This document shows, in pieces, positions 18,080 through 25,249 of a stretch of 25,607 nt of DNA. Position 1 is the first letter of the stretch. Each line of letters starts with the position of its first letter. The stretch is from a virus. Where the stretch lies: the IMG/VR virus record IMGVR_UViG_3300047476_000514, positions 1-25,607 of that record; one strand, given 5' to 3'. A program made the position numbers and the translations under genes. Under the pieces are notes generated by a model. The model was given only the letters and a program-made list of their open reading frames with translations, ran no database searches and was not told the origin of the DNA.

Positions 18080-18988
18080 ATGGCTATTTCACGCGCCCAA
18101 CTCTTAAAAGAGTTACTACCTGGCTTGAACGCATTGTTCGGACTTGAGTATGCACGTTATGGTGAAGAACACAAAGAGATCTACGAAACAGAGACTTCTG
18201 AGCGTTCTTTTGAAGAAGAAACAAAATTGTCTGGCTTCTCAGCTGCCCCAGTTAAAAACGAAGGTTCTGCGATTGCTTATGACAATGGTCAAGAAGCTTG
18301 GTCAGCACGCTACAACCATGAGACTATCGCTCAAGGTTTCAGCTTGACTGAAGAGGCTATCGAAGACAACTTGTACGACTCATTATCAGCTCGCTACACT
18401 AAGGCATTGGCTCGTTCAATGGCTTACACAAAGCAAGTTAAAGCTGCTAACGTGTTGAACAACGGCTTCACTGCTGGCTACACTGGTGGCGACGGCAAGA
18501 CATTGTTTGCAACTGATCACCCACTAGTTTCTGGTGGCGTGAACAGCAACCGTCCTGCTACTGCTGCTGACTTGAACGAAACATCATTGGAAAATGCTGT
18601 TATTCAAATCGCTGGCTGGACAGACGAGCGTGGTCTTTTGATCGCTGCTAAGCCTAAGAAATTGGTTGTTCCACCTGCATTACAGTTCGTTGCAACTCGC
18701 TTGCTAGAAACTGAATTGCGTGTTGGTACTGCTGATAACGACATCAACGCTATCAAGAACAACGGTAACATTGGTGAAGGTTACACAATCAACCACTTCT
18801 TAACTGACACAAACGCATGGTTCTTGACAACAGACGTACCTAACGGAATGAAGCATTTCGTACGTACTCCGTTGCAAAACTCTATGGACGGCGACTTCGA
18901 TACTGGTAACGTACGTTACAAGGCTCGTGAGCGTTATTCATTCGGTTACTCAGATCCATTGGGTATGTACGGTTCACCAGGCGCTTAA
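18080..18988 (+). CDS. Major capsid protein (302 aa)
   Basis: It follows the scaffold and decoration-like genes and ends at a strong terminator. Motifs: an N-terminal RSFEEETKLSGFSAAPVKNE (about 42-61), AIAYDNGQEAWSARY, GFSLTEEAIEDNLYDSL (about 91-107) and GDGKTLFATDHPLVSGG (about 137-153), the DG-x-LF-x-x-DHP pattern of Mu gpT-like capsid proteins with the HK97 fold. The size fits, and no head protease or delta domain is fused. Highly even codon use points to strong expression. The gene forms the main wall of the icosahedral head. Confidence 0.88.
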   Translation: MAISRAQLLKELLPGLNALFGLEYARYGEEHKEIYETETSERSFEEETKLSGFSAAPVKNEGSAIAYDNGQEAWSARYNHETIAQGFSLTEEAIEDNLYDSLSARYTKALARSMAYTKQVKAANVLNNGFTAGYTGGDGKTLFATDHPLVSGGVNSNRPATAADLNETSLENAVIQIAGWTDERGLLIAAKPKKLVVPPALQFVATRLLETELRVGTADNDINAIKNNGNIGEGYTINHFLTDTNAWFLTTDVPNGMKHFVRTPLQNSMDGDFDTGNVRYKARERYSFGYSDPLGMYGSPGA

Positions 18989-19005: not shown

Positions 19006-19031
19006 AAAGGGGAGCTTCGGCTCCCTTTTTT
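19006..19031 (+). terminator. Rho-independent terminator after the capsid gene
   Basis: GGGAGC (19010-19015), TTCG loop, GCTCCC (19020-19025) and six T (19026-19031). Outer AAAG/TTTT pairs extend the stem to about 10 bp. It lies 20 bases after the MCP stop and closes the head-gene transcript. Confidence 0.93.
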
Positions 19032-19045
19032 ATTTGTAAAAATAG

Positions 19046-19073
19046 TTGCAACTTATTTAAAATAGAGTAATAT
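19046..19073 (+). promoter_or_regulatory. Sigma70-like promoter for the second structural unit
   Basis: TTGCAA (19046-19051) and TAATAT (19068-19073), 16 bases apart, in A/T-rich DNA directly after the terminator. Transcription would begin near 19080, at the start of the structured leader. Confidence 0.6.
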
Positions 19074-19079
19074 TACTGA

Positions 19080-19145
19080 AACCGGGCGAACCGGCTTATT
19101 AGACTGCCCCGGCAGACGATATACCGACTAATAAGCTTAACTTGT
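19080..19145 (+). ncRNA. Structured 5' leader candidate
   Basis: Three nested or adjacent helices can be read by eye. Helix 1 is CCGG (19082-19085) with CCGG (19091-19094) around GCGAA. Helix 2 is GCTTATTAG (19094-19102) with CTAATAAGC (19128-19136), a perfect 9-bp pair whose first base competes with helix 1. An inner CTGC/GCAG hairpin (19104-19107 with 19112-19115) lies inside helix 2. The ribosome site AAGGA and ATG 19161 follow. It may be a mRNA-stabilising leader, an attenuator or a protein-binding site. I do not match it to a known RNA family. Confidence 0.55.
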
Positions 19146-19160
19146 ATATAAGGACTCAAC

Positions 19161-19376
19161 ATGTCACGTACTACTTTCTCAGGCCCAGTTGCTTCAACTA
19201 ATGGCTTTATCGCTCCAACTTACACAGTAACATCAGCTAACGCAATTGCAGCTAGTGCTAAAACTGTAGGTCAAGTTATCTATGTTTCTAACGGTTTAGC
19301 TGGCGCGCCAACTTTAGCTGTTTGGAATGGTACTAACTGGATTTCTGCTGCCGGTACAGCTATTTCAGCAACCTAA
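19161..19376 (+). CDS. Small structural-type protein (71 aa)
   Basis: AAGGA precedes the ATG after the structured leader. The product begins MSRTTFSGPVASTNGFIAPT and contains GQVIYVSNGLAGAPTLAVWN with GTNWISAAG, a beta-type pattern common in short virion or tail-associated proteins (the YVSxx..G..P...WNGTNW motif). Being alone at the head of a strongly controlled transcript suggests high expression. The exact role is unknown; a decoration or spike component is likely. Confidence 0.7.
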   Translation: MSRTTFSGPVASTNGFIAPTYTVTSANAIAASAKTVGQVIYVSNGLAGAPTLAVWNGTNWISAAGTAISAT

Positions 19377-19441
19377 TTAATCAATCGGGGGTTTAGGGTT
19401 GAGACTACTCGGCCGCCCCTTAACAATTTAGGAGATTAATT
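19375..19441 (+). promoter_or_regulatory. Inverted repeat enclosing the ribosome site of the next gene
   Basis: AATTAATC (19375-19382) pairs perfectly with GATTAATT (19434-19441), directly before ATG 19442. GTTTAGGG (19391-19398) and CCCTTAAC (19417-19424) can pair inside with one mismatch. The ribosome site AGGAG (19430-19434) lies between the two helices and partly in the outer one, so folding could limit translation. Confidence 0.45.
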
Positions 19442-19720
19442 ATGGGTATGCAAACCGATGTAATGGCTAAAAGCCTAGCGGCTTCAGGTAGTGTTGTTGG
19501 TAGTAGAGCGCGTGTTCGCGGAATGGTTATTGTTCCAGGCACAGGTGCTGGTAGCGTTGTTTTAAAAGACGGCGGTTCTGGTGGCGCAACAATCCTTACA
19601 ATCCCTACAATTGCCAACGGCGAGCCATTTAACGTGGTTATTCCAGCTGAAGGCGTATTGTTTGAGACTGATGTATATGCGACTCTTACAGACGCTGGCG
19701 TAACGGTGTTTTATGCCTAA
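19442..19720 (+). CDS. Small structural-type protein (92 aa)
   Basis: It starts MGMQTDVMAKSLAASGSVVG after AGGAG. The rest is beta-rich and Gly/Val-rich (VRGMVIVPGTGAGSVVLKDG, ATILTIPT, ending TLTDAGVTVFYA). The opening M-x-M-Q-T-D-V and closing V-T-V-F-Y are as I remember for a family of small virion-type proteins in this position. It overlaps the following gene by 8 bases. The function is unproven. Confidence 0.7.
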   Translation: MGMQTDVMAKSLAASGSVVGSRARVRGMVIVPGTGAGSVVLKDGGSGGATILTIPTIANGEPFNVVIPAEGVLFETDVYATLTDAGVTVFYA

Positions 19721-19970
19721 AAAAAAGGGCGTATCTCTTGCAGTAGGTCGCGGTGAGAAGTTGCCAGTGTCTAAGGGCGCTGGTCTTACCGCTAAAGGCC
19801 GTGCTAAGTACAACAAAGCTACTGGATCAAACTTGAAGGCTCCACAGCCAGAGGGCGGTCCACGTAAGCGTTCGTTCTGCGCACGCATGTCAGGTATGCC
19901 TGGTCCAATGAAAGACGAGAACGGGAAACCGACTCGTAAAGCAGCGAGTTTAAAACGATGGAAATGTTAG
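19713..19970 (+). CDS. DUF6321-like basic protein (85 aa)
   Basis: The conserved block GLTAKGRAKYNKATGSNLK (about 24-42) is followed by RKRSFCARMSGMPGPMKDEN (about 51-70) and the closing GKPTRKAASLKRWKC. This is the pattern I know as DUF6321. The protein is very basic, with two conserved cysteines, and probably binds nucleic acid, though this is not shown. Its first codons after MP are AAA AAA AAG. It opens the Lys/Gly-rich cassette of this transcript. Confidence 0.8.
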   Translation: MPKKKGVSLAVGRGEKLPVSKGAGLTAKGRAKYNKATGSNLKAPQPEGGPRKRSFCARMSGMPGPMKDENGKPTRKAASLKRWKC

Positions 19971-20206
19971 TCTGGAACTTAGTCCTATCCACGACAGTGG
20001 GTATGCTGGCGTTTTTCTTAAAGGAAAAGTCAGCTGAGCTAAACCGTATTCAGATTCTTTTAAACAGAACACGGGAAGAAATTGCCAAGGAGTATGTAAC
20101 CAAGGCTGAGGTTCATAACGACATTAATCGTGTTTTAGACCGTTTAGACAGACTTGAATCTAAGTTGGACGCTTTTATAAAGGATCAAAAAAGTGCCATC
20201 AACTAG
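19958..20206 (+). CDS. Membrane-anchored coiled-coil protein (82 aa)
   Basis: Residues about 4-22 are hydrophobic (LVWNLVLSTTVGMLAFFL), followed by a long coiled coil (about 24-76) with heptad-like LNRIQILLNRTREEI and INRVLDRLDRLESKLDAF. One N-terminal span with a soluble coiled-coil tail is seen in phage spanin/holin helpers and in DUF2730-like proteins. It overlaps neighbours on both sides (13 and 14 bases). The function is unknown; a lysis or ejection link is possible but not shown. Confidence 0.65.
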   Translation: MEMLVWNLVLSTTVGMLAFFLKEKSAELNRIQILLNRTREEIAKEYVTKAEVHNDINRVLDRLDRLESKLDAFIKDQKSAIN

Positions 20207-20618
20207 TAAAAAACAACATGGATTTATGGCTGCCGTAGCTAACAATCCTAAATTTGCCAAGAAGGTTGGCGTACCTAAGTCCGTAGGAGAAGAGTTTATG
20301 AAGGCAGATAAAGGTCGTAAATTTAGACAGGGCGGCGCCCTTAAAGAAACTGATGCCGAGACCAATCCAGGCTTGGCTAAACTACCAACTGAAGTGAGGA
20401 ATAAAATGGGATACATGAAAAAAGGCGGAATGGCGCACTCAGACATGGCTAAAGACAAGCCAATGATGAAGAAGGTTGCCAAAGAAGAAGTTAAAGCACA
20501 TGAAAAAGAAATGCACGGCATGAAAAAAGGCGGTATGTGCAAGGGATACGCTAAAGGCGGCGTAACTCGTGCTGATGGTTGCGTTAAAAAGGGCCATACT
20601 AAAGGTAAGATGGTGTAA
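20193..20618 (+). CDS. Lys/Gly-rich protein with RADGC tail (141 aa)
   Basis: The start is GTG 20193 with AAAGGA eight bases upstream; an in-frame ATG at 20226 is the alternative. Residues 1-50 hold HGFMAAVANNPKFAKKVG and VPKSVGEEFMKADKGRKFRQ, a pattern I recall from small phage proteins. Two MKKGGM repeats follow (about 75-80 and 110-115), and the end reads YAKGGVTRADGCVKKGHTKG with KMV. The last 16 residues share a motif with the next gene. The protein is strongly basic and probably flexible, with a likely nucleic-acid or packaging role, unproven. Confidence 0.75.
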   Translation: MPSTSKKQHGFMAAVANNPKFAKKVGVPKSVGEEFMKADKGRKFRQGGALKETDAETNPGLAKLPTEVRNKMGYMKKGGMAHSDMAKDKPMMKKVAKEEVKAHEKEMHGMKKGGMCKGYAKGGVTRADGCVKKGHTKGKMV

Positions 20619-20620
20619 TT

Positions 20621-20896
20621 ATGGCTGACGTTAAAGACCCTCAAAAGCTTGTTGACGACATTGCTAAACAAGAGAATGAAGAAGATAAAGCTGCGGTAAA
20701 TAAGTATATTGTTGAGCCTGTTAAAAAGCTTGGCAAACGTCTTAAAGATAACGTTATGGGTACTGAAAAGCAGAATAAAGAAGCTGCTGAAAGCTTAAAG
20801 CGTGCCGGTTACAAATCAGGCGGTAAAGTTTCTTCAGCTTCTAAACGTGCTGACGGATGCGCAATTAAAGGTAAAACCAAAGGACGAATGGTATGA
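20621..20896 (+). CDS. Basic protein with RADGC tail (91 aa)
   Basis: The N-terminal half is a charged helix (KDPQKLVDDIAKQENEEDKA, then VEPVKKLGKRLKDNVMG), and the C-terminal part repeats the cassette pattern: GYKSGGKVSSASK and RADGCAIKGKTKGRMV. The final 16 residues parallel the end of the preceding protein. There is no strong ribosome site before the ATG, but the two genes are only two bases apart. The stop overlaps the next start (ATGA, 20893-20896). The function is unknown. Confidence 0.7.
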   Translation: MADVKDPQKLVDDIAKQENEEDKAAVNKYIVEPVKKLGKRLKDNVMGTEKQNKEAAESLKRAGYKSGGKVSSASKRADGCAIKGKTKGRMV

Positions 20897-21138
20897 GAGC
20901 CTCTCGTGGTATGGGCGCAATCAGCCCAAGCAAGATGCCTGGCGCTAAAAAGAAAGCGCGTCGTGATGACACCGACTTCACAGAATATGCTGAAGGTGGT
21001 AAGGTTGGGTTATACGCCAACATCCATGCCAAGAGAAAGCGTATTGCCGCAGGTTCTGGAGAGAAAATGCGCAAGGTAGGTAGTAAAGGCGCCCCTACAG
21101 CAGAGGCATTTAAGAAATCAGCAAGGACTGCCAAATGA
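20893..21138 (+). CDS. Basic protein with YAEGGKVGLY motif (81 aa)
   Basis: The product, beginning MRASRGMGAISPSKMPGAKK, is basic and flexible, with TEYAEGGKVGLYANIHAKRK (about 30-49) and a C-terminal IAAGSGEKMRKVGSKGAPTA. I recall near-identical layouts (MRASRGMG...KMP, GLYANI.AKRKRIAAGSGEKMR) in other environmental phages. It is coupled on both sides by ATGA overlaps and joins the Lys/Gly-rich cassette to the connector gene. The function is unknown. Confidence 0.75.
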   Translation: MRASRGMGAISPSKMPGAKKKARRDDTDFTEYAEGGKVGLYANIHAKRKRIAAGSGEKMRKVGSKGAPTAEAFKKSARTAK

Positions 21139-22079
21139 CAACATCAGGAACCACAACATTCAATTTAGACGTAAATGACCTCATTGAGGAAGCGTTTGAG
21201 CGTTGTGGGCTTGAACTGCGTACCGGTTATGACTTCCGTACAGCGCGCCGTTCACTGAACTTGCTTACTGTAGAGTGGGCTAACCGTGGAATCAATTTGT
21301 GGACCGTAGAACAGGGCCAGATCACGATGAATACGGGTCAGGCTATCTATGCCCTACCTAACAACACAATCGATCTCCTAGACCAGGTTATACGCCAAAA
21401 TAGCGGTAGTTCGTCTAACCAGATTGACATTAATATCAGCCGTATTAGTGAGTCTACCTACTCAACAATTCCAAATAAGTTGACAACTGGACGCCCAATT
21501 CAAGTATGGATTAACCGTCAATCAGGTCAATCAAGCGTAACAGCGTCAACTTTATCTACAACGATTACAGCAACATCGACATCTATTAGCTTGTCTGATG
21601 TAACCGTGTTGCCAGCAGCTGGCTTCATCAAGCTTGATAACGAATTAATCAGCTATAACACCTTGACGCTAACCAGCACGTCTGGGACTGCTGGCGTATT
21701 GACTAACTTAGGTCGTGGTCAGCAAGGCACAATTCCAGCAGGTCATACCGCTGGCGCCATTGTGTCAATCGTTAACCCACCATCGATTAACGTATGGCCA
21801 GCCCCTAATGCTGGTGGTGGCTATACATTCGTTTACTGGCGTATGCGCAGGGTTCAGGACGCTGGAACAGGCGTTACAGACCAAGACATCCCATTCCGCT
21901 TTATTCCTTGCATGGTAGCTGGATTGGCTTACTACATTTCTATGAAGAAGCCAGAGGTATCACCAGACCGTGTATTGATGCTAAAGCAGGATTATGAGCA
22001 ACAATTCCAGTTAGCATCTGACGAAGATAGAGAAAAAGCACCAGTGCGTTTTGTACCAAGGAGCTTGTTCTATGCCTAA
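21135..22079 (+). CDS. Head-tail connector/adaptor protein with inserted domain (314 aa)
   Basis: An N-terminal helical part (NDLIEEAFERCGLELRTGYD, FRTARRSLNLLTVEWANRGI, about 14-54) and IYALPNNTIDLLDQVIR match adaptor proteins of the P22 gp4/T7 gp11 sort that I recall under names such as tail tubular protein A. The final part (SINVWPAPNAGGGYTFVYWR, IPFRFIPCMVAGLAYYISMK) completes that pattern. Between about 131 and 213 sits an extra module with FIKLDNELISYN and LGRGQQGTIPAGHTAGA, which resembles a repeat found in tail-fibre proteins. The start overlaps the preceding stop (ATGA). Confidence 0.82.
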   Translation: MTTSGTTTFNLDVNDLIEEAFERCGLELRTGYDFRTARRSLNLLTVEWANRGINLWTVEQGQITMNTGQAIYALPNNTIDLLDQVIRQNSGSSSNQIDINISRISESTYSTIPNKLTTGRPIQVWINRQSGQSSVTASTLSTTITATSTSISLSDVTVLPAAGFIKLDNELISYNTLTLTSTSGTAGVLTNLGRGQQGTIPAGHTAGAIVSIVNPPSINVWPAPNAGGGYTFVYWRMRRVQDAGTGVTDQDIPFRFIPCMVAGLAYYISMKKPEVSPDRVLMLKQDYEQQFQLASDEDREKAPVRFVPRSLFYA

Positions 22080-22500
22080 TCGTTTTGCTTCTGGCAAGTA
22101 TGCGATTGCGCAATGTGACCGATGCAACTTTAGGTACAAGCTAAAGCAATTAAAAAAGCTAACAATCAAGACACAACAGAAGAACATTCTGGTATGTCCT
22201 GAGTGTTGGGAGCCGGATCAGCCTCAGTTGTCATTGGGTATGTACCCAGTTGATGACCCGCAAGCCGTGCGTAACCCAAGGCCAGATACAACGTATCAAA
22301 TGTCTGGAACTAGCGGTTTACAAGAGTTATTGTTTGATAGTCCTACAATTGAAGGTGTAGGCTATCCAGAAGGTGGTAGTAGAGTGTTTCAGTGGGGATG
22401 GGCGCCAGTTGGCGGGGCAAGTTATTTTGATGCAGCTTTAACACCAAATGACTTGATTGCAGTGGGACAAGTTGGTACAGTTACAGTTAATATTACTTAG
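22072..22500 (+). CDS. Zinc-ribbon structural-type protein (142 aa)
   Basis: ATG 22072 (MPNRFASGKYAIAQCDRCNF) has AAGGAG eight bases upstream and overlaps the connector by 8 bases; a longer in-frame reading would start inside that gene. CDRC (about 15-18) and CPEC (about 43-46) form a four-cysteine zinc site, followed by LGMYPVDDPQAVRNPRPDT (about 56-74) and a C-terminal RVFQWGWAPVGGASYFDAAL with LTPNDLIAVGQVGTVTV. I recall this family next to connector genes in environmental phages. A bridging role at the head-tail vertex is plausible, not shown. Confidence 0.78.
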   Translation: MPNRFASGKYAIAQCDRCNFRYKLKQLKKLTIKTQQKNILVCPECWEPDQPQLSLGMYPVDDPQAVRNPRPDTTYQMSGTSGLQELLFDSPTIEGVGYPEGGSRVFQWGWAPVGGASYFDAALTPNDLIAVGQVGTVTVNIT

Positions 22501-22509
22501 GAGTAAATC

Positions 22510-22704
22510 ATGGGATACAAATCAGGCGCAGACGGCATCACTAAAAAAGGCAAAACCAAAGGTCGTAACCTTGGTGATTCAGGCCCATCAGTGGGTATTG
22601 AAAAAGGTCCAAAGCACAGTGGTTCTAAAGGCGGCAAAAAGAACATCGATATGAAAACTATGGGTCGTGGCTTAGCTAAAGTTGCTGCTCAAAAGAGAGG
22701 CTAA
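22510..22704 (+). CDS. Small Lys/Gly-rich protein (64 aa)
   Basis: TAGGAG precedes the ATG. It opens MGYKSGADGITKKGKTKGRN, the cassette motif placed at the N-terminus rather than the C-terminus, and continues basic and Gly-rich to SKGGKKNIDMKTMGRGLAKV. It is probably flexible. The function is unknown; its likeness to the RADGC-tailed genes 1.6 kb upstream points to shared origin. Confidence 0.7.
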   Translation: MGYKSGADGITKKGKTKGRNLGDSGPSVGIEKGPKHSGSKGGKKNIDMKTMGRGLAKVAAQKRG

Positions 22705-22706
22705 TC

Positions 22707-22967
22707 ATGGCTTACAGCATGAAAAAAGGCGGTAAAGAAGTAGGCCCAGCTTCTGTATATGCAGAGCCACACACTATGGATGGTAAAAAGATGAAGAGCG
22801 CAAAAGATTCAGTAGTCAAGCCAGGCAATGGCATGGACAAGGTTAATATGTCAGTTGCTGGCATCAGCAAAGGCAATTACCCACCAGAAAACAAGTATGG
22901 CAAGATCCAGATGCGCGGTACAGGTGCAGCCACCAAAGGCAAAATGTCTAGCGGAAAAATGGGCTAA
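22707..22967 (+). CDS. Small Lys/Gly-rich protein (86 aa)
   Basis: It starts MAYSMKKGGKEVGPASVYAE after GAGAGG. The blocks YAEPHTMDGKKMKSAKDSVV, NMSVAGISKGNYPPENKYGK and IQMRGTGAATKGKMSSGKMG are all polar and flexible. R-G-T-G-A-A-T-K-G is reminiscent of the R-G-x-G-x-A-x-x-G ends I recall in similar phage proteins. The stop shares a base with the next ATG (TAATG). The function is unknown. Confidence 0.7.
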   Translation: MAYSMKKGGKEVGPASVYAEPHTMDGKKMKSAKDSVVKPGNGMDKVNMSVAGISKGNYPPENKYGKIQMRGTGAATKGKMSSGKMG

Positions 22968-23641
22968 TGAATTACACAGAGTTATCCGCTAGGATTCAAG
23001 CGTATTGCGAGAACGAGTTCCCAGCTTCGGCTGGTAATTTGACGTCTGCTGAGCAGATTGCTACGTTTGTTGAGCAAGCTGAAGAGCGTATTTATAACTC
23101 GGTTCAGTTCCCTGCGTTGCGTAAAAACGTGACAGGCACGCTGACCGCAAACAATAAGTACCTATCTTGCCCAAATGATTTCTTGGCTGTTTACTCTATG
23201 GCGGTCATCCAGGCTGATGGTAGTTACGAATACCTTTTAAATAAGGACGTTAACTTCATTCGTGCAGCTTATCCGGTCCCGACAGACACTGGTGTTCCTA
23301 AGTATTACGCTCTTTTTGGGCCGCAATACACATTAGGTACAGAGCTGTCGTTTTTTATTGGTCCAACCCCAAACGCGAATTTAAATGTAGAACTTCACTA
23401 CTTCTTCTACCCACAGTCAATTGTTACTGCTGGTACAAGCTGGTTAGGCGACAATTTTGATCCTGTGTTGTTGTATGGTGCGTTGCGTGAAGCTTATATC
23501 TACATGCGCGGTGAAGCTGACATGATTGCCAATATTGAAGGTAAATACCAAGAAGCATTGGCACAAGCTAAACGTCTAGGCGATGGCATGGAGCGTGGTG
23601 ACGCATACCGTGATGGCCAATTTAAGATGAAGGTCGTATGA
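22967..23641 (+). CDS. Second adaptor-type protein (224 aa)
   Basis: The start MNYTELSARIQAYCENEFPA and the following AEERIYNSVQFPALRKNVTG (about 37-56), CPNDFLAVYSM and YLLNKDVNFIRAAYP (about 88-102) match phage adaptor proteins as I recall them, as do the C-terminal VELHYFFYPQSIVTAGTSWL and DNFDPVLLYGALREAYIYMR (about 162-181). Together with the gene at 21135 it gives two connector-class proteins, which suits a ring-on-ring neck. The exact position in the neck cannot be told from sequence. Confidence 0.8.
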   Translation: MNYTELSARIQAYCENEFPASAGNLTSAEQIATFVEQAEERIYNSVQFPALRKNVTGTLTANNKYLSCPNDFLAVYSMAVIQADGSYEYLLNKDVNFIRAAYPVPTDTGVPKYYALFGPQYTLGTELSFFIGPTPNANLNVELHYFFYPQSIVTAGTSWLGDNFDPVLLYGALREAYIYMRGEADMIANIEGKYQEALAQAKRLGDGMERGDAYRDGQFKMKVV

Positions 23642-24667: not shown

Positions 24668-25249
24668 ATGTTTTATACATATGCGCACTATACCCCGCAA
24701 GGTAGGCTTTTCTACATCGGAAAAGGTCAGGGGAAGCGTGCGCAGTCTTTAAAAGGACGAAATAAGTATTGGCACAGAGTGGTACAAAAGCACGGCAAAC
24801 CAAATGTTCAAGTGTTAGCAAGTTGGAAAACCGATGAAGAAGCTTGTAGCCACGAAATATTACTTATTGAATGTTTTAAAGACCTTGGGTATAACCTTTG
24901 TAATATGACCGCTGGTGGTGAAGGCACTTATGGCGTTGCCCCGTGGAATAAAGGAAAGCCTTGGAGCGAAGAAGTAAAGCTTAAACAAGGTGTAAAAAAC
25001 GTAGGCAATAAAAATTGGGTTGGTAGAAAACATTCAGCCGAAGCAATCAATAAACAAAAACAAGCTAAAGTAAAGTTTAAATTTATTGGTACATGTATAA
25101 GTACTGGAAAAACAGTTACTATTCTTGGTAAAGGCGCCATGAAAGATTTTGGTTTTACTTCAACGCACGTTTATAGATGTGCTGATGGTAAATCTCCATC
25201 ACATAAAGGGTATACTTGGCGTAAAGAATTATTGGGGGCTACATGCTAG
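24668..25249 (+). CDS. Free-standing GIY-YIG homing endonuclease (193 aa)
   Basis: The GIY-YIG domain occupies residues 1-90: YTYAH (3-7) and FYIGKG (15-20) replace the two signature triplets, R24 is the conserved arginine, E63 in SHEILLIECF the catalytic glutamate, and YNLCNMTAGGEGTYG (75-89) the closing block. PWNKGKPWSEEVKLKQG with GRKHSAEAINKQ (about 92-130) are NUMOD3-type DNA-binding repeats, and TVTILGKGAMKDFGF with VYRCADGKSPSHKGYTW (about 149-184) a NUMOD1/IENR-like tail. It is not within an intron. There is no clear ribosome site before the ATG. Such enzymes cut homologous sites in rival phages and spread their own gene. It is A-richer than its neighbours, in line with later acquisition. 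Confidence 0.92.
   Translation: MFYTYAHYTPQGRLFYIGKGQGKRAQSLKGRNKYWHRVVQKHGKPNVQVLASWKTDEEACSHEILLIECFKDLGYNLCNMTAGGEGTYGVAPWNKGKPWSEEVKLKQGVKNVGNKNWVGRKHSAEAINKQKQAKVKFKFIGTCISTGKTVTILGKGAMKDFGFTSTHVYRCADGKSPSHKGYTWRKELLGATC

Follow-up and report, generated by a model that had tools for sequence, protein, structure and literature searches.

The window analysed here is a stretch of viral DNA of 25,607 nucleotides (IMG/VR record IMGVR_UViG_3300047476_000514), in which a Mu gpT-like major capsid protein gene is followed on the same strand by an intrinsic terminator, a sigma-70-like promoter, a structured leader and a gene for a small protein (Table 1). An earlier note on this DNA had described the terminator, the promoter and a run of three helices (CCGG/CCGG, a 9-bp helix and CTGC/GCAG), and all of these are in place, the four-base inner arms lying at 19104-19107 (CTGC) and 19112-19115 (GCAG). 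The names given to the helices and pseudoknots in Table 1 (P1, P2, PK1, PK2 and the local hairpin H1) are used throughout.

Table 1. Features of the capsid gene, leader and downstream gene in the window; positions are counted from the first letter of the window.
Feature	Position	Strand	Basis or remark
Major capsid protein gene, Mu gpT-like	18080..18988	+	PHROG 371 major head protein; Pfam Mu-like_gpT 44.6 bits, above cut-off
Intrinsic terminator GGGAGC-UUCG-GCUCCC-U6, 3' of capsid gene	19010..19031	+	Sequence
Sigma-70-like promoter TTGCAA-16-TAATAT	19046..19073	+	Sequence; TTGCAA 19046-19051, 16 nt spacer, TAATAT 19068-19073; predicted start about 19079-19081, just 5' of PK1 5' strand
PK1 5' strand CCGGG	19082..19086	+	Pairs with 19108-19112
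Local arm CCGG (helix 1 of the earlier note, H1)	19091..19094	+	Can pair with 19082-19085; shares base 19094 with P1
P1 5' strand GCTTATTAG (RNA: GCUUAUUAG)	19094..19102	+	9-bp helix with 19128-19136
P2 5' strand CUG	19104..19106	+	CUG/CAG changes in relatives
PK1 3' strand CCCGG, in P2 loop	19108..19112	+	Covariation with PK1 5' strand
P2 3' strand CAG, then conserved AC	19113..19115	+	Covariation with P2 5' strand
PK2 5' strand AUAUAC	19119..19124	+	Covariation with 19144-19149
P1 3' strand CTAATAAGC (RNA: CUAAUAAGC), conserved GA before	19128..19136	+	Covariation with P1 5' strand
PK2 3' strand GUAUAU	19144..19149	+	Ends right before SD; covariation
Shine-Dalgarno sequence (SD) AAGGA	19150..19154	+	Sequence; 6 nt before ATG at 19161
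Downstream gene, 71 aa, MSRTTFSGPV...	19161..19376	+	N-terminal arm matches HTVC023P gp41

Three other features of the window can be recorded beside this locus. A second short intergenic stretch (19377-19441) carries a G-rich/C-rich inverted repeat (GGGG...CCCC) 5' of the next SD; several small plus-strand open reading frames, rich in lysine, glycine and methionine (MKKGG-type), lie among the structural genes at 20193-22967; and inside the structural region, at 24668-25249, there is a GIY-YIG homing endonuclease-like open reading frame of 193 amino acids starting MFYTYAHYTPQGRLFYIGKG.

Neither the promoter nor the predicted folding of the window makes the leader conspicuous when taken singly. 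The promoter matches the consensus weakly (8/12); in a promoter consensus scan it fell below the cut-off and went unlisted, and promoter-like sites around the leader showed no excess (8 found against 10.9 expected). We retained it despite its weak score because the -10 box is positionally conserved among relatives. The fold energy of positions 19070-19170 is ordinary when nested folding is compared with shuffles (z -0.5), and as this result is not significant, the nested fold, no more stable than the shuffles, was dropped from the evidence for the leader. The case for a structured RNA is instead a comparative one.

An exact 24-mer of the leader also occurs in eight other viral contigs, and relaxed patterns extended the set to about 90 close relatives, once chance matches in coding sequence, which the broad pattern scan also gave, had been removed by inspection. 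A capsid homologue is the upstream gene in 61 of these roughly 90, the window counted. The idea of a multi-copy element was rejected, since each contig carries a single copy (17 of 17). In alignment A2, which was made with MAFFT and built without structure information, pairing over the structure as a whole reaches 97.1% of cells, as against at most 43% when it is slid. Changes on both sides are seen at eight of the nine pairs of P1 and at two of the three pairs of P2; the earlier note had named relatives that change one arm without compensation as the observation that would count against the structure, and for P1 the outcome is favourable. In P2 the CUG/CAG of the window is replaced by UUG/CAA or CCG/CGG among close relatives, and other relatives have CAG/CUG.

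The 5' strand of the leader covaries with the loop of P2 in the same close relatives, CCGGG, CUGGG and CUAGG being matched by CCCGG, CCCAG and CCUAG, respectively. Of 37 distinct close variants, 36 retain all five pairs of this pseudoknot, PK1, whereas the local hairpin H1 is complete in 30 and broken in 7; the MAFFT register of the 5' strand is wrong in some rows of alignments A1 and A2, which lowers the support for PK1 there. The local partner arm is kept in 17 of 18 CCGG-type elements, as compared with 0 of 52 others. The earlier note had suggested that two alternative folds are possible, and for the CCGG-type clade this is upheld: because the arm is so consistently kept there, H1 and PK1 appear to compete for one strand, which on comparative evidence has two mutually exclusive partners. 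As a general structure H1 does not survive. Judged from these sequences, it is a clade-specific alternative, the 5' strand having the P2 loop as its main and widely conserved partner.

The second pseudoknot, PK2, is invariant among the closest relatives, and as these show no variation, support for it comes from more distant ones. Several retrieval patterns had moreover required PK2, which makes the close relatives uninformative on it, and for this reason relatives were fetched without reference to the RNA, via the capsid protein alone and also via cultured phages. With a descriptor built solely on P1, P2 and the conserved A, A[CU] and GA, the P1/P2 core is found in 72 of 201 distinct post-capsid regions and in none of 1,005 dinucleotide shuffles, a strict count that misses real members, given that 15 of 26 loci with TTFSGP-type downstream genes scored as "none" pass a looser test. 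The covariance-model search for relatives that the earlier note had proposed also located the element in this collection: model R1 finds it in HTVC023P (49.7 bits) and in many capsid-locus contigs, where the matches nearly always lie between the capsid gene and the next gene. A blastn search of the leader against cultured phages gave short chance matches only, the relative being found by the covariance model.

Both pseudoknots are supported in this collection. Averaged over the 72 elements, the best PK1 helix scores 14.0, whereas exchanging partners between loci gives 9.2 (highest mean in 5,000 permutations, 10.7), and for PK2 the values are 13.8 and 10.2 (highest in 5,000, 11.2); the sequences compared are related by descent and the permutation figures are not strict probabilities, but slid controls agree with them. 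On alignment A8, made by the covariance model without knowledge of the pseudoknots, the paired cells amount to 90.2% for PK1, four of whose five pairs are changed on both sides, and to 85.9% for PK2, where all six pairs are so changed and the covariation score is 0.510 (shuffles, 0.229). Two cultured phages serve as examples: HTVC023P has CCUAG:CUAGG for PK1 and GUAUAG:CUAUAC for PK2, and DSL-LC04 has CUAGG:CCUAG and UAGUAG:CUACUA. The window's core between the P1 strands, ACUGCCCCGGCAGACGAUAUACCGA, is 25 nt long, and this inter-P1 stretch is exactly 25 nt in 46 of the 72 elements, running in the order A, P2, six-base loop with PK1, P2, AC, PK2 strand, GA. Sequence comparison of this kind demonstrates P1, P2, PK1 and PK2 as well as the position of the element between the capsid and cement-type genes, and the double-pseudoknot leader recurs in many marine and freshwater phages.

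Among 70 distinct relatives, 65 have a terminator 5' of the element and 60 have a -10-like box whose end lies 4-10 nt 5' of the PK1 strand, as compared with 27% for such a box in shuffles. From these two observations it follows that the leader RNA probably begins at the 5' end of the transcript. The promoter-led, structured 5' leader of the earlier note is supported, and it behaves as a conserved RNA element. In five elements (L027, L150, L411, L424 and L449) the space that a promoter would need is small or lacking, and these must for that reason be read from upstream.

At its other end the element meets the next gene. Across the 72 elements, the 3' strand of PK2 overlaps the SD in 30 and stops 0-6 nt short of it in 20, a further 15 being assigned to the start region; seven are unclassified, L125, L226 and L392 among them owing to a misread start codon. 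Comparison thereby shows three routes by which, in different relatives, PK2 reaches the initiation region of the next gene: the SD, the nucleotides just upstream, and the start codon. In the window, P1 ends 13 nt 5' of the SD, which is unpaired in the proposed fold, and the SD overlap of 1 that our script reports for the window's PK2 is the U of UAAGGA. A shorter PK2 also occurs. In a subclass with the core GACAAGCCAAGA it has only 4 bp, GCCA:UGGC, a match to a common start context; for the subclass of L151, L153, L170, L173 and others, PK2 is cut down to 4 bp that match the start codon, the SD being part of a separate hairpin (UUUCC...GGAGGAAA).

The earlier note had placed the leader before a tail-type gene, a description that we would replace, as the gene looks like one for capsid cement. 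The downstream proteins of relatives have a common N-terminal arm, M-x-x-[TS]TF-x-GP, and diverge widely beyond it. In relatives a longer form of 151 aa shares 73% identity with the protein annotated as cement in DSL-LC04, and the best match of its AlphaFold model is a chain of the cyanophage Pam1 capsid (E 4.8e-4, TM 0.57-0.61), which we take as supporting only because the model is of low confidence (mean pLDDT 57). On these grounds the gene after the leader seems to resemble the cement of the Pam1 capsid. That the window's own protein is of the cement type we infer, as it has 71 aa and its N-terminal arm alone matches. The element occurs with TTFSGP-type downstream genes at 87 of 113 loci, as compared with 7 of 88 loci with other genes. 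A gene is inserted between the capsid gene and the leader at L014:6284-6964 (a methyltransferase family match) and at L004:5317-5997, and the leader stays with the cement-type gene despite the insertion. The cement-type proteins of relatives (A6, A7) combine a near-invariant N-terminal arm, TTFSGPV, with C-terminal domains of several kinds that look unrelated, much as though a capsid-binding tag carried interchangeable domains.

Read from its covariation, the leader sequence is explained by two pseudoknots, both unseen by the earlier note, and PK2 points to translation initiation, a role absent from the proposals of that note, which had put forward mRNA stability or the sensing of a phage protein. 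We think it probable that the element is a cis-acting 5' leader RNA giving translational control of the gene after the capsid gene. Transcription would start just upstream of 19082; the first transcribed nucleotides, CCGGG, would pair into the P2 loop while P1 closes the domain, and the strand after P2 would pair with the nucleotides directly before the SD, so that through PK1 and PK2 the 5' end and the ribosome-loading site would be tied together in one compact fold. Such a fold may limit or gate loading of the 30S ribosome on the cement gene, and the gating may set the level or timing of cement relative to the capsid protein, with shielding of the 5' end as a possible secondary effect. As the SD is unpaired in the window's fold, PK2 could here help rather than hinder ribosome loading.

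The main rival would refine this idea of translational control. The leader lies between the capsid and cement genes in nearly all relatives, and it could be a protein-responsive operator, to which the capsid or cement protein, when in excess, would bind so as to repress cement synthesis, much as gp32 does in T4, where the gene 32 leader pseudoknot provides a phage precedent for autogenous repression (PMC3014915). However, few unpaired nucleotides are conserved (A, AC and GA), and with covariation unrestricted over most of the sequence, a binding protein would have to read shape. The operator is possible but somewhat doubtful.

Less likely again is a role as mRNA stabiliser only, in which the knot would bury the 5' end and block 5'-end-dependent decay with no effect on initiation. 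The spacing of the -10-like box in 60 of 70 relatives would suit such a role, as it puts the 5' end within a few nucleotides of a helix; yet a second pseudoknot that follows the SD or the start codon would be superfluous for stabilisation, and the five elements with little promoter room have kept the structure all the same. A metabolite riboswitch with a translational expression platform would account for a compact pseudoknotted fold adjoining the SD and for the varied ways in which the initiation region is engaged, but the phages that carry the element have many putative hosts and always have it at one structural-gene locus, its conserved unpaired core is short, and no Rfam riboswitch matches it, all of which makes this reading improbable. 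We give still less credence to a trans-acting small RNA, the class to which Rfam assigns the related Mu-gpT-DE RNA (RF03012, typed "Gene; sRNA"): no terminator follows the element, which continues into the next gene's SD and start codon and shows covariation with both, and an extra gene inserted upstream does not part the element from the gene it precedes. Least credible is a put-like antitermination element acting on RNA polymerase from the nascent transcript, which would fit a strongly structured RNA that starts at a promoter but leaves the pairing with SD and start codon unexplained, and no clear strong plus-strand terminator is listed in 19161-23000.

The earlier note had also suggested that the leader may be an undescribed RNA element. 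For the window this is correct insofar as it has no Rfam match at the gathering threshold and, at a relaxed threshold, low-scoring chance matches only; RF03012 in particular gives no match in the window at its gathering score of 49, none around the leader up to E = 10 and none in a search of the window's own genome. It is not correct for the locus as such, where relatives with the same core layout match RF03012 (L165 with 71.3 bits, L215 with 66.6, L171 with 48.1 and L189 with 47.1, the gathering score being 49). Searched against Rfam 15, the relatives match this family only, and no riboswitch or ribozyme family. The Mu-gpT-DE motif reportedly goes back to Weinberg 2017.

A long-P2 version of our descriptor finds 22 further regions, against 0 of 645 shuffles, and by descriptor an element of the Mu-gpT-DE type was found in Roseobacter phage CRP-902. 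In a start-codon set made up of the 22 long-P2 regions together with L189 and L428, the strand inside P1 holds CCC where the gene begins AUGGG (12 elements) and GCC where it begins AUGGC (11), with no exceptions among the 23 tested, and the pairing scores 11.9 against a permutation mean of 10.0 (largest of 20,000, 11.7). This start-codon pairing is absent from the Rfam structure line, and a reanalysis places RF03012 among the families whose database structure has no covarying pairs (PMC7657543).

Like the window's leader, Mu-gpT-DE comes after a gpT-like capsid gene, ends at the next start codon, and has the layout A-P2-AC-strand-GA-P1, with a strand inside P1 that pairs with the initiation region. 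In the window the leader extends to the SD of the gene at 19161, and it has this A-P2-AC-strand-GA core inside P1, its strand being complementary to the initiation region, by a definition that is ours and not Rfam's. The two differ in that the P1 of Mu-gpT-DE is short (CCUG/CAGG) and its 3' strand doubles as the SD, its P2 is longer, a start-codon pairing is present and we could see no PK1, whereas in the window a 9-bp P1 (GCUUAUUAG/CUAAUAAGC) lies 5' of the SD, P2 has 3 bp and a loop that takes part in PK1, and PK2 is placed just 5' of the SD. We treat them as branches of one architecture, the window being a non-member by the criteria of Rfam. A possible third version of the leader may be seen in L310 and L371, in which a TTFSGP-type gene after the capsid gene is preceded by a different small hairpin (GACCCUUCGGGGAC).

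What looked like a weak run of hairpins is in this way recognised as a double-pseudoknot RNA with good support, which occurs in diverse phage contigs, those of cultured Pelagibacter and freshwater phages among them. It unites the leader with an existing Rfam family, and the covariation with the start and second codon gives Mu-gpT-DE a directly testable role in translation. Starting from translational control of the cement-type gene as the preferred reading, we tentatively suggest that an RNA superfamily widespread in phages with gpT-like capsids, with Mu-gpT-DE as one branch, might clasp the 5' end and the cement initiation region and serve as a feedback valve matching cement to capsid protein, in which case the alternative 5' hairpin of one clade might be the second state of the switch; this wider proposal is rather less likely to hold than to fail.

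A compact pseudoknot adjoining the SD is also a feature of translational pseudoknot riboswitches and of the rpsO/S15 operator. The SAM/SAH riboswitches, with a compact pseudoknot next to the SD, are similar in this respect (PMC7367207). SAM/SAH-type riboswitches and the rpsO/S15 operator differ from the leader in helix order; in the leader no conserved ligand pocket is recognised, and there is no Rfam match.

The T4 gene 32 leader has in common with ours a pseudoknot in a phage 5' leader that lies 5' of the ribosome-binding site, where in T4 it controls translation (PMC3014915), and both PK1 and PK2 have such a position. It differs in having a single pseudoknot, which lies 67 nt 5' of the start codon and is bound by gp32, whereas the window has two, one of them touching the initiation region, beside capsid genes. 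A 2010 review regarded the gene 32 pseudoknot as perhaps the sole viral example in translational autoregulation (PMC3014915); if confirmed, the leader described here would be a clear phage case of capsid-gene control by a pseudoknot.
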